In this document: positions 12,598 to 20,790 of the stretch, piece by piece
Layout: each line of letters opens with the position of its first letter
How positions within the stretch are numbered: position 1 is the stretch's first letter
Virus record (IMG/VR): IMGVR_UViG_3300035698_010463
Coordinates: 1-39,939 of that record
Source: a virus
DNA: 39,939 nucleotides
Direction: 5' to 3' (one strand)
Position numbers and translations under genes: made by a program
The notes under the pieces: model-generated
What the model was told of the DNA's origin: nothing
The model's database searches: none
What the model saw: only the letters and a program-made list of their open reading frames with translations

Positions 12598-14649
12598 ATG
12601 AAGAAAAAAGTTTTATTTGTGGGAGACCACCCCTTTGCAACTAGCGGAAACGCTGGTATGCTTCATGCCGTTTTGTGCCAAGTCGATCAAGAAAAATACG
12701 ATGTTTCCGTTTTCGGACTATCTAATAAAGGTAGTTCTTTCCTTTCTTCTTTAAAAAGTGAAAATAAAGATTTTCCTTTTCCAATATTAGAGGGGTCAGA
12801 AGAAAGAGATCGTTTAGGCAAGGGTAAACTAGTTGAATATTTAAGTAACATTCCTACAGACATAGTGATTTTTGTAGGGCTAGATATTTGGGTATACAAA
12901 GATATTTTTACTCAATTACACCAATTAAGAACTCAAAAAGGATTTTTAATTGCTTCTATATTTCCCTGGGATTTACAGAAGGTAAGAAATGATTGGGTAA
13001 ATTGGATTAATTTCTTTGATTTCCCTTGTGTATATTCAGAACATGGTTACAATACTCTTAAAGATAAAGTAAAAAATCTAAAGTATTATAGACCTTTGCT
13101 ACATTATAGTGATATTTGGAAACCCTATTCTAAAGAAGATAAACAGCTTATTAAAAATAGAATGTTTCCAGGAAACAAACCAGAGGACCTAACTTTTGGG
13201 TTTGTAGGAGTAAATCAGCATAGAAAAGATCCTCAAAGATTGCTAAAAGCTTTTACTTTAGCCAAAAAAGAAGTAGATAATATTGTTCTATATCTTCATA
13301 CTAACCCTACTCGGGGTGTTTACAATTTAAAACAGTATGCTATGGATTGCGGATATGAAAAAGGTTGGTTGAGATGTAAAGGGGATGGAAAAGATTTTAA
13401 AATCGGAGATATGGTAAATCTATATAATGCTATGGATTGCTTAGTTAATTGTAGTATACAGGAAGGTCTGTCCTGGACACCTTTGGAGGCCATGTTATGC
13501 GGGTGTCCTGTTATTGGTTCAGATACTACAGCTCAGACAGAACTTATTGAAAATTCCGGAGTTTTAGTTATACCTACTGTTCCTACATATCAGCCTTTAA
13601 TAGCTGGAGAGGGTAGTTCTTGGATAGATGCCATGACTTGTAAAGCCGAGGACATAGCCGAGGCTATAGTAAGAGTAGCTAAAGATAAAGAACTTAGAGA
13701 GAAAATGTCTGTAGCAGGTAGACAAAAAGGTGAGGATTGGTTAGAACATGCTAGTAATATCAATGTTTTACTTGAGGATATGTTTAAAGCAGGAACAATA
13801 GAAGTTAAAAAAGAAGATAAGATAGATAAAGTTTTATTTGTCCAGCACTCTTCAGCTGGAGATGTTTTAATAACCACTCAATGTTTTAAAGGAATTAAAG
13901 AAAGACATAAAGGTAAAGAGTTGGTTTACATGACACAAAAGCAGTTTAAAGGTGTTGTGGAAGGGAATCCTTATATAGATGAAATAATCGATTGGGATCC
14001 TAAAGCACCTGCTAAGTATAGTTACATATATAATCCTCATGGAGAAAAAATATTACCTGGAGCTTGGAATAATGGGGATGTTAAATTGTATGATATGTAC
14101 CCTTATTTTTGTAAAGTAGAACCTGATGATTTATCTATTACTCTTAATAAACCAGACATAGACTTACCTGAAAAATATATTGTTGTTAATACTGCAGGAG
14201 CTTCTACATATAGAAGATATGCACATTCTGCTATAGCATTAAAAGATATAGGATACTCTATAGTACAAATAGGTTCTGGTGTAGATCCTTATTGTGAAAT
14301 AGCAGATGTAGATTTAAGAGACAGGTTATCTTGGACCGAAAGTGCTTATATAATGAAAAATGCGGTATGTGCTTTAGTAGTAGATAGCTATTGTGCTCAC
14401 TTAGCAGGAGCGGTAGATACCCCTGCTGTAGTTTTGTTTGGTCCAGCCCCTGCAAGGGTTGTAGGACCTAGATATAAAGATAAGAAGAACCTGATAGAAA
14501 TGGAACCTGAAAAACTTAAAGTTTGTCCTATATCTGCCAATTGTTACGGACAACCAGGAAGAGAGGTCTGTACCTCTCCTTGTATTAATACATTAAACCC
14601 TATGAAAGTAAAACAATTTTTGATTAATTTAATTGAAAGAAAGGGATAA
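12598..14649 (+). CDS. Bifunctional glycosyltransferase, GT4-GT9 fusion, 683 aa
   Basis: Two GT-B glycosyltransferase domains are joined in one chain. Residues 1-400 are GT4-like: an N-terminal Rossmann start (KKKVLFVGDHPFATSGNAG) and the EX7E donor-binding motif in QEGLSWTPLEAM (E289 and E297). From about residue 409 a second domain begins with KVLFVQHSSAGDVLITTQ, characteristic of the GT9 family (ADP-heptose transferases and relatives), and continues to DSYCAHLAGAVDTPAVVLFGP. The end has a Cys-rich tail (CPISANCYGQ, CTSPC). Such a protein could add two sugars in sequence. Donor and acceptor cannot be read from the sequence. It opens the cassette with AAAGGAG before the ATG. Confidence 0.85.
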   Translation: MKKKVLFVGDHPFATSGNAGMLHAVLCQVDQEKYDVSVFGLSNKGSSFLSSLKSENKDFPFPILEGSEERDRLGKGKLVEYLSNIPTDIVIFVGLDIWVYKDIFTQLHQLRTQKGFLIASIFPWDLQKVRNDWVNWINFFDFPCVYSEHGYNTLKDKVKNLKYYRPLLHYSDIWKPYSKEDKQLIKNRMFPGNKPEDLTFGFVGVNQHRKDPQRLLKAFTLAKKEVDNIVLYLHTNPTRGVYNLKQYAMDCGYEKGWLRCKGDGKDFKIGDMVNLYNAMDCLVNCSIQEGLSWTPLEAMLCGCPVIGSDTTAQTELIENSGVLVIPTVPTYQPLIAGEGSSWIDAMTCKAEDIAEAIVRVAKDKELREKMSVAGRQKGEDWLEHASNINVLLEDMFKAGTIEVKKEDKIDKVLFVQHSSAGDVLITTQCFKGIKERHKGKELVYMTQKQFKGVVEGNPYIDEIIDWDPKAPAKYSYIYNPHGEKILPGAWNNGDVKLYDMYPYFCKVEPDDLSITLNKPDIDLPEKYIVVNTAGASTYRRYAHSAIALKDIGYSIVQIGSGVDPYCEIADVDLRDRLSWTESAYIMKNAVCALVVDSYCAHLAGAVDTPAVVLFGPAPARVVGPRYKDKKNLIEMEPEKLKVCPISANCYGQPGREVCTSPCINTLNPMKVKQFLINLIERKG

Positions 14650-14651
14650 TT

Positions 14652-15389
14652 ATGAGAGTGGTAATGAAATGTTTAAATGAACAAAAAAGTGTAGCTAGAT
14701 GTATTGGGGATTTTCATGACGATAGTTGGGTAGATGATATTATCGTAATTGATGGAGGTTCTAGTGATTACACAGTTCAAGAGTTAAAACAGTTTGGTAA
14801 AGTAAGAGTTTTTATTCATCCTTACTTAGATTGGTATCACGATGCTGAAATAATGCATGCCAATATTATGCTGTCTTATGTACCTACAGATTCAATTTGC
14901 TTTTTATTAGATTTTGATGAAAAGTGTAATTCTAAACTTAAAGAGTTTTTAACCGAAGTCGATGAAACAAAGGAATTACCTGAAGGAGCGGATCTTGTGC
15001 ATATTGCGAGAAGAACTGTAGATGTAATGAGACACCCAGATAGCCCTTTTGTAATACTTGGAGAAGATGGATGGCCTATTGAAAGCCATCAAATAGGACA
15101 ATTTCCTGACTATCAGCCTAGACTTATTAAAAAATCTATACATATGCATTGGATACAAAGTCCTCATAGAACATTATCTGGATTTACTAGAAATTATAAT
15201 CACAATTCAGATTGTTTTATTCATCATATTGAAAAGGACGATTCTAGGGATAGAGATTGGATTGAAAAAAGGTGGATAAGACCTATAGCTACTAGAAAAT
15301 CGTTAGGTTTACCTTGCGATTTATATGATTGTAATCCTAAAATAGAATATGCAGAAGCCGCAGATATCAACTATTGGAAGGATAAATGA
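14652..15389 (+). CDS. GT-A glycosyltransferase, 245 aa
   Basis: The protein is GT2-like: an N-terminal nucleotide-binding strand (MRVVMKCLNEQKSVARC), then VIDGGSSDYT, the family's usual D-G-x-S-x-D sugar-nucleotide segment. The metal-binding DxD is D87-F-D89 (LLDFDEK). A His-rich C-terminal region (IHMHWIQSPHRTLSG) could contact acceptor. The start follows the preceding stop by 2 nt, and its end overlaps the next gene by 4 nt, so the genes are co-translated. Substrates are unknown. Confidence 0.8.
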   Translation: MRVVMKCLNEQKSVARCIGDFHDDSWVDDIIVIDGGSSDYTVQELKQFGKVRVFIHPYLDWYHDAEIMHANIMLSYVPTDSICFLLDFDEKCNSKLKEFLTEVDETKELPEGADLVHIARRTVDVMRHPDSPFVILGEDGWPIESHQIGQFPDYQPRLIKKSIHMHWIQSPHRTLSGFTRNYNHNSDCFIHHIEKDDSRDRDWIEKRWIRPIATRKSLGLPCDLYDCNPKIEYAEAADINYWKDK

Positions 15390-20015: not shown

Positions 20016-20398
20016 GTACTCGAAATGATTTAGTTAGAAAACACTATACTCAAATACCAGGAGAAATTTCTGAGGTAGAAATTAATAAATTGAGAGATAT
20101 GGCCAGAGGTAAAGTTTGTTTGGAAATAAACGGACAGTTAGGAAAAGAAACTGTTATTTTGGCTCAAACTGCAAGGAAGGTTGTGGTTGTTGTATCTGAA
20201 GATAACATAGATGCTTTAAGAGAAAACATTAAAGGGTACGGTAATATTGAAATATATATAGGTGATATATATGAAACCGCAGCAGGTTTACAATCTGAAT
20301 TTTTTGATTTAATTTATGCAGATAATTATAAGCAAGCAGATTATTTTGCATCTAAGCTTAAAAAAGACGGAGTTCTTATAGCAAGGGGTGTAATATGA
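20012..20398 (+). CDS. Degenerate methyltransferase-like protein, 128 aa
   Basis: The protein begins by ATGA overlap with the radical SAM gene and has AAGGAAGGAG upstream. GKVCLEINGQLGKE corresponds to the SAM motif of the 18259 paralogue (GKICVEVGSYKGRST), but the first Gly of ExGxxxG is Asn (E-I-N). FFDLIYADNYK replaces the usual acidic motif. It is short compared with the family and ends where the other copies continue. It may be inactive, a regulatory subunit of another methyltransferase, or a partial duplicate under decay. Confidence 0.6.
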   Translation: MSTRNDLVRKHYTQIPGEISEVEINKLRDMARGKVCLEINGQLGKETVILAQTARKVVVVVSEDNIDALRENIKGYGNIEIYIGDIYETAAGLQSEFFDLIYADNYKQADYFASKLKKDGVLIARGVI

Positions 20399-20790
20399 AA
20401 TTAAGAGTATTTGTAGTAGATGCTTATAGTTCTAAGTCTGATGTTTTAAAAACTGTAGAGTCTTTTAAAGGAAGAGTAGACGATTTTCAATTTGTAGATA
20501 GCTTGTTCGAAATTAATTTTACGGATAAGTATGAGGAAGGGTGGTTCGGAGTAATCTACAATAATGAAAAAATTACAGAAGAGTTGGTAGAAGCTTTACC
20601 AAAGTTTTTTGAATTTACGGAAGCTGATGTGTTAGTAGCATATAAAAGAGAGAATAAAGAAGAACCTAAAGTTTCAAGATCTCCTAGATTTTTTAGAGGA
20701 GATATACCTTTAAGTATAGAATGTTTAATGCCTGAGGATGAAACATTAGATCATCAAATAATGTTGGACGGATGGATTGAAGAACAATGA
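20395..20790 (+). CDS. Hypothetical cassette protein, 131 aa
   Basis: It starts by ATGA overlap with the preceding gene and ends by ATGA overlap with the tail-completion gene, so it is the last gene of the cassette. The N-terminal half (LRVFVVDAYSSKSDVLKTV) resembles a GT-A-like alpha/beta start, but no DxD metal motif is visible. The C-terminal part is acidic with RSPRFFRGDIPLS. It could be a truncated glycosyltransferase or an accessory subunit. No family is recognised. Confidence 0.5.
   Translation: MKLRVFVVDAYSSKSDVLKTVESFKGRVDDFQFVDSLFEINFTDKYEEGWFGVIYNNEKITEELVEALPKFFEFTEADVLVAYKRENKEEPKVSRSPRFFRGDIPLSIECLMPEDETLDHQIMLDGWIEEQ

Follow-up and report, generated by a model that had tools for sequence, protein, structure and literature searches.

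The virus record IMGVR_UViG_3300035698_010463, 39,939 bases long, without host contigs and referred to here as the window, raises a simple question: why should glycosyltransferases, methyltransferases and a radical S-adenosylmethionine (SAM) enzyme be encoded together among the genes for the head and neck of a phage particle? An earlier note, made from the letters of the window, had pointed out this cassette, and had suggested that it decorates virion proteins or a surface glycan. The observation is confirmed by the analysis described here, and the interpretation is partly supported. The cassette is not a stray insertion, and it probably coats the phage's own particles with variable sugars. 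Genes are named below by the position at which they start in the window.

The cassette site in related phages

Relatives were collected by scanning viral contigs with the capsid protein of the window (65 contigs), with an alignment of capsid proteins (at least 227) and with the product of the first cassette gene, 12598, a fusion of a GT4 and a GT9 glycosyltransferase (GT4-GT9). This last query found 84 contigs, of which 80 were kept, so that at least 80 viral contigs besides the window have the fusion. They share the neck site, and the possibility that the earlier note raised against its own reading, of a recent, isolated insertion that no relative shares, does not hold. In all the GT4-GT9 contigs that include the flanks, the order is capsid gene, 10633 (when present), 11139, 11473, 11962, GT4-GT9 and then a set of variable genes, and contigs that reach far enough continue from these into 20395, 20787 and the tail genes. 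In nearly all of the 63 non-redundant contigs in which the left-border spacing was measured, GT4-GT9 starts 0-81 nucleotides (nt) past the 11962 gene, and 20395 abuts or overlaps 20787 in nearly all contigs. Between these constant borders, the span of interchangeable genes runs from 0 to about 9 kb. The minimal forms (L017, L065 and L139) have GT4-GT9 followed directly by 20395, while in the largest 11962 and 20787 are about 11 kb apart.

The same site is also found without a cassette, among others in deep sister clades, the distance from 11962 to the neck gene being -27 to 671 nt where measurable. Some of the cassette-free relatives have a gene of 94-101 amino acids (aa) between the 11962-type and 20395-type genes (L012:4015-4320, L014:12500-12784). 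Presence and absence were read from 145 distinct capsid proteins, of which 64 have GT4-GT9 at the site and 43 have the site without it, the remainder being unreadable; because the sample was partly gathered through GT4-GT9, the ratio of 64 to 43 is not a frequency.

In cellular genomes, GT4-GT9 was found in just 2 of 84,980 species, in both cases on contigs where the genes follow this same phage order and which are binned with Gram-negative bacteria. Set against the viral contigs, this indicates that GT4-GT9 is a viral gene family. A tblastn search of 50,697 phage records with GT4-GT9, the cassette glycosyltransferase that this search covered, gave a sole match, in Tetrasphaera TJE1 (24%). Neither the Tetrasphaera TJE1 glycosyltransferase nor the radical SAM gene of Streptomyces SF3 lies in a neck module, and both were rejected as same-site relatives.

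No close DNA relatives were found among phage isolates, where 10633 and 20395 are also without a match and the best match to the terminase is just 22%. The capsid family (9370-10617), which those at least 227 contigs in IMG/VR represent, has no member among the 50,697 phage isolate records, and the whole phage group therefore appears to be uncultured. A scan of viral contigs with the neck protein 20787 as the lone query found nothing.

Exchange of the cassette middle

The variable genes were classified from 127 proteins of relatives. The accessory families comprise GT2, GT4 and GT8 glycosyltransferases; many SAM methyltransferases, including the rhamnosyl-O-methyltransferase/CmcI type; radical SAM proteins with SPASM or B12-binding domains; DegT aminotransferase, RmlD and epimerases of the GDP-mannose dehydratase type; and cytidylyltransferase, acetyltransferases, polysaccharide pyruvyl transferase and carbamoyltransferase. 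From these family assignments, the set looks like a repertoire for the synthesis and tailoring of a glycan.

This repertoire has few hydrophobic members. Of 164 cassette proteins scanned, only one exceeds a hydropathy of 2.0 over a 19-residue stretch, and no multi-pass protein is apparent. The scan likewise gave no apparent flippase, polymerase (Wzx/Wzy) or bactoprenol transferase, and Wzx/Wzy do not figure in the list of the 25 most frequent Pfam families of the accessory proteins. The pathway therefore looks soluble, and its acceptor cytoplasmic.

Comparison of the window with two relatives shows how the middle is exchanged. The backbone proteins of L070 are 60 (capsid), 56 (terminase), 55 (11962) and 55% (GT4-GT9) identical to those of the window, falling to 45% for 20395 and 34% for 20787, whereas the inner genes are more alike: 68% for the GT2 gene, 66% for 15386, 68% for 16053, and 76% for both 16946 and the radical SAM gene. 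In L001, which has the nearest backbone (capsid 81%, borders 45-81%), the genes from 15386 to 18792 (genes 3-8) have no counterpart. It follows that the inside has moved independently of its borders.

High turnover of this kind, together with the empty sites in sister clades and one interrupted gene in the window, would also be expected if these were selfish or passenger genes that occupy a permissive site in a late operon and have no role in the particle. We consider this improbable: the border gene order is fixed, the content is restricted to glycan-type enzymes, and GT4-GT9 keeps both of its active-site motifs over wide divergence (GT4 in 76 and GT9 in 79 of 80 full-length members).

A capsid-adjacent protein as candidate acceptor

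If the acceptor is a virion protein, the leading candidate is the product of 10633, the gene directly after the capsid gene. Its AlphaFold2 model (pLDDT 88) is a jelly-roll or TNF-like β-sandwich; trimeric surface proteins and collagen-like phage proteins match it weakly in structure, and a PDB sequence search gave nothing credible. The gene is present in 48 of the 64 cassette phages and in none of the 43 cassette-free ones, and when 10633 itself was the query, all 42 of the 42 contigs that reach the site had GT4-GT9. Its presence goes with cassette size (24/27 at 4.7 kb or more, 0/4 at less than 3 kb). Four cassette phages without 10633 have other capsid-adjacent proteins that share its N-terminal GPWPS arm; a loose form of this arm motif is also matched by some open reading frame in the near-identical, cassette-free L020 and L021. 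A C-terminal extension of the capsid protein was rejected as acceptor, since this protein is 414-415 aa long in many relatives with and without the cassette and thus has no extra tail.

The reading that we favour, and which we hold to be rather likely, is that the locus is a modular virion-glycosylation system with 10633 as leading acceptor candidate. It starts from what is directly established, namely the gene content, the conserved site, the empty sites, the mosaic exchange and the exclusive co-occurrence with 10633, and it is preferred because the placement in the head-neck operon is fixed and because of the link with 10633. In the host cytoplasm, while the late genes are expressed, soluble GT4-GT9 would assemble a core glycan, usually together with a GT2 enzyme. 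Its extension and capping would fall to the products of the variable middle genes: glycosyltransferases, O- and possibly C-methyltransferases and radical SAM enzymes, and in relatives also nucleotide-sugar enzymes and acetyl-, pyruvyl- and carbamoyltransferases. The acceptor would most likely be a surface protein of the particle that is made at the same time; in relatives without 10633, this role would have to fall to the capsid protein or to some other protein of the virion. Phages could then exchange whole middle sections by recombining between their constant border genes, which would give a 'serotype-like' variety of particle surfaces, and the benefit might be a shield against proteases or host factors, or a changed adhesion.

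Several points weigh against this proposal. Glycan synthesis, acceptor and benefit are all deduced from genes. There are clades (of the L100, L103 and L208 type) that have accessory enzymes and no 10633, and a methyltransferase gene of the window is interrupted. Placed on the capsid tree, GT4-GT9 switches about 5 times and 10633 about 9 times, always in the same direction and below significance; the independent switches being few, the association of 10633 with GT4-GT9 is not significant after phylogeny, and shared ancestry is an alternative explanation for it. Finally, the GT9, GT4 and GT8 families also build the lipopolysaccharide (LPS) core, and do so with soluble enzymes.

This last point belongs to the main rival explanation, that the cassette acts from the cytoplasmic face, at a late stage of infection, to remodel the LPS core of the host, and so blocks adsorption of released or co-infecting phages to the cell or its debris. 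The GT9 domain of 12598 matches LPS heptosyltransferases, both cellular GT4-GT9 contigs are binned with Gram-negative bacteria, and the glycosyltransferases of pelagimyophages were interpreted in a similar way, as LPS-modifying, by their authors (PMC7029224). We nevertheless regard LPS remodelling as unlikely. The cassette is linked neither to lysogeny nor to receptor genes, its place is the head-neck operon in all relatives that have it, it co-occurs exclusively with a capsid-adjacent protein, and the hydropathy scan revealed no apparent transmembrane or flippase component. The two targets proposed in the earlier note are thus not equally matched: enzyme content, the scarcity of transmembrane proteins and the co-occurrence with 10633 fit virion proteins better than a membrane-exported glycan.

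Genes of the cassette in the window

Table 1. Features of the head-neck region, cassette and tail genes in the window.
Position	Strand	Feature	Evidence
9370..10617	+	Major capsid protein (Phage_cap_E, lambda-E type), 415 aa	Pfam PF03864 E 2.4e-28; PHROG major head protein
10633..11121	+	Capsid-adjacent β-sandwich protein ('DEC'), leading acceptor candidate	AlphaFold2 model; co-occurrence with GT4-GT9
11139..11486	+	Small head-region gene	Position and profile matches in 119 loci, kept with or without cassette
11473..11961	+	Head-completion-like gene	Synteny/position; no informative PHROG match
11962..12573	+	Conserved left border gene, head-completion-like	Position; spacing to GT4-GT9 as in text
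12598..14649	+	GT4-GT9 fusion glycosyltransferase, constant first cassette gene, 683 aa	Pfam GT4 and GT9, motifs, 80 viral loci
14652..15389	+	GT2-family glycosyltransferase, usually second gene, invariant DxDE	Pfam PF00535, alignment
15386..16042	+	SAM methyltransferase (Methyltransf_23)	Pfam
16053..16946	+	Probable GT-A glycosyltransferase, invariant DxD	Alignment; no library match
16946..17527	+	SAM methyltransferase (Methyltransf_24)	Pfam
17549..18259	+	Methyltransferase-like gene, weak Methyltransf_23/MetW	Pfam
18259..18783	+	Methyltransf_24 gene, interrupted	Pfam, frame reading
18792..20015	+	B12-binding radical SAM enzyme, CX3CX2C at residue 172	Pfam, NCBIfam, PDB, motif
20012..20398	+	Small methyltransferase-like gene, weak	PHROG 15516 E 3e-4; Pfam very weak
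20395..20790	+	Predicted mini GT-A-fold protein, degenerate DXD, constant last gene adjoining neck gene	AlphaFold2, Foldseek, hhalign
20787..21290	+	Tail-completion/Neck1-like gene, right border	PHROG 26/222/5 matches in family members
22744		Tail-tube-like gene	Profile search
24141		Tape measure	Profile search

The open reading frames of the cassette and the 4-nt overlaps at 15386, 20012, 20395 and 20787 are exactly as first described. For the glycosyltransferases, Pfam supports both the fusion and the GT2 gene at 14652. Both domains of the fusion exceed the curated cut-off (PF00534, 54 bits; PF01075, 26.7 bits), and their motifs are in place, EX7E at 289-297 for GT4 and D-S-xxx-HL at 596 for GT9. 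The label 'GT-A' given to 16053 comes from a DxD motif (D126, D128) that is invariant across 8 relatives; the protein has no match in Pfam, PHROG or NCBIfam, a PDB sequence search gave nothing credible, and hhalign against the GT2 family is not significant.

Five genes had been called methyltransferase-like. Pfam bears this out for 15386, 16946 and 18343, weakly for 17549 and very weakly for 20012. The third of these is what remains of the interrupted gene, in which an in-frame TAA is codon 20 of the 18259 frame (18316-18318) and a GTG-initiated open reading frame, 18343-18783, is intact. Intact homologues occur in several relatives, and the other cassette genes of the window are open. A recent nonsense mutation or a fault in the assembly could account for the TAA in this fourth methyltransferase gene.

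Since phage glycosyltransferases that act on DNA are well known, and some of the cassette methyltransferases match a PHROG that bears the name DNA methyltransferase, it might be supposed that the enzymes add sugars and methyl groups to the bases of the phage DNA as hypermodifications. This seems to us exceedingly improbable. The matches in the window are to the Pfam models Methyltransf_23 and Methyltransf_24 rather than to base-methyltransferase models, relatives add DegT, RmlD and pyruvyl and carbamoyl transferases, no base-hydroxylation enzyme is seen among the accessory families listed above, and the location is within late virion genes.

The radical SAM assignment of 18792 is upheld by Pfam, which finds B12-binding and radical SAM domains; together with the CX3CX2C motif, these place the protein in the cobalamin-binding (class B) radical SAM enzymes. 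Its matches include PhpK-type and other cobalamin radical SAM families of NCBIfam, C-methyltransferases of ribosomally synthesised and post-translationally modified peptides (RiPPs) and, in the PDB, AprD4 and OxsB; no NCBIfam equivalog cut-off is attained.

A promoter scan of the window gave no excess above shuffles. Terminator-like sites are more numerous than in shuffles, yet many are inside genes, and they were not used.

The border gene 20395

The gene that had been described as a small unknown, 20395, has no Pfam, PHROG or NCBIfam match, and a PDB sequence search was without credible result. An AlphaFold2 model made from a 30-member alignment (pLDDT 95) is predicted to have a GT-A-like fold. 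In Foldseek, the best solved structures are those of SunS and ThuS, which are peptide S-glycosyltransferases, and of the GT-A enzyme SpsA (E 2.6e-5 and weaker, TM 0.5-0.6), and the list of fold matches also contains glycosyltransferases of PBCV-1 and STIV. By hhalign, the family matches the GT2 family of the cassette at E 2e-4 (probability 45). The YNNE of the window protein, which is Y-D-N/D-E in many relatives, aligns opposite the DFDE of GT2, and Glu alone is invariant, so that the DXD motif is degenerate. By inference, a non-catalytic or altered role is likely. The gene is kept in 12 of the 43 relatives lacking GT4-GT9, and is for this reason better counted with the borders than with the cassette proper.

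The nearness of this mini GT-A fold to peptide-acting SunS and ThuS, and the RiPP C-methyltransferases among the matches of 18792, could suggest that the radical SAM enzyme and the methyltransferases modify a virion peptide in a RiPP-like manner and that the glycosyltransferases are secondary. This is very improbable, as the radical SAM gene is absent from many cassettes while GT4-GT9 is always present, and no precursor-peptide gene was noticed.

Returning to virion glycosylation, a more specific proposal can be put forward tentatively for this large group of tailed phages: a capsule-like, recombining locus within a structural operon may glycosylate a dedicated capsid decoration protein and thereby create interchangeable particle 'serotypes', with the degenerate GT-A protein 20395 as an adaptor or scaffold.

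Neighbouring genes

The earlier note had placed the cassette between a head-completion gene and 20787, called there an HK97 gp10-like tail-completion gene. The site is as described; the term head-completion is given to 11473 and 11962 by their position. For 20787, the match of the window protein to PHROG tail-completion/Neck1 profiles is weak (E 0.049), and relatives give repeated matches of up to E 5e-4. In L083, L085 and L111 there is an extra gene between the 20395-type and 20787-type genes (L083:20641-21165), matched by a tail-tube profile; the start of this gene in L083 (MVSRRGFLKVAGGTAALAVV) resembles a twin-arginine signal peptide, which is odd in a virion gene. Beyond the tail genes, on their 3' side, a single open reading frame of 2419 aa at 29576-36835 presumably encodes a tail-tip or receptor-binding protein.

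Comparison with known systems

Bacterial O-antigen and capsule (cps) loci and flagellin-glycosylation islands have constant borders and an exchangeable middle of glycosyltransferases, nucleotide-sugar enzymes and tailoring enzymes. The locus described here is like them in its conserved borders and its exchangeable, mosaic middle. It differs from them in that no flippase, polymerase or membrane components are apparent and that it is inside a phage structural operon. In the serotype-conversion (gtr) operons of phages, which are found near attachment sites, membrane proteins are needed for bactoprenol-linked transfer. These also use phage-encoded glycosyltransferases to alter surface chemistry, whereas here the enzymes are soluble and encoded in the neck module, with no multi-pass membrane proteins apparent. 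Glycosylation in PBCV-1 and mimivirus is independent of host organelles and involves methylated sugars. These large eukaryotic DNA viruses encode their own glycosyltransferases for capsid glycosylation, as outlined in a review (PMC4691112); the viruses, hosts and enzymes differ from those considered here, with no demonstrated sequence homology.

The closest parallel in phages is provided by the mycobacteriophages Che8, Corndog and Myrna, in which, according to PMC11256854, PMC12363180 and PMC12619734, which refer to Freeman et al. 2023, phage glycosyltransferases glycosylate virion proteins of the same infection, the modification sites being the C-termini of capsid and tail-tube proteins. In the related F1 phage Maravista, the glycosyltransferases are encoded near the 3' end of the genome. 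Both systems have phage-encoded glycosyltransferases, here with intact motifs in GT4-GT9, and the virion target that was shown there is proposed here; the GT4-GT9 fusion, the many accessory genes, the fixed neck site and the capsid-adjacent partner protein set the present locus apart. The suggestion that this is an undescribed system thus stands for the architecture of the locus and for the phage group, and falls in general, given the mycobacteriophage precedent (PMC11256854, PMC12363180). Literature searches, which covered open-licence papers, turned up no account of a neck-located glycan cassette, and an earlier description is possible.

Implications

To our knowledge, glycosylated phage particles are known from just a few cultured actinobacterial phages. 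If the proposal of virion glycosylation is correct, sugar-based diversification of surfaces, which is familiar in bacteria, would also act on phage particles, and these phages would be a source of soluble virus-borne glycosyltransferases together with a testable acceptor.

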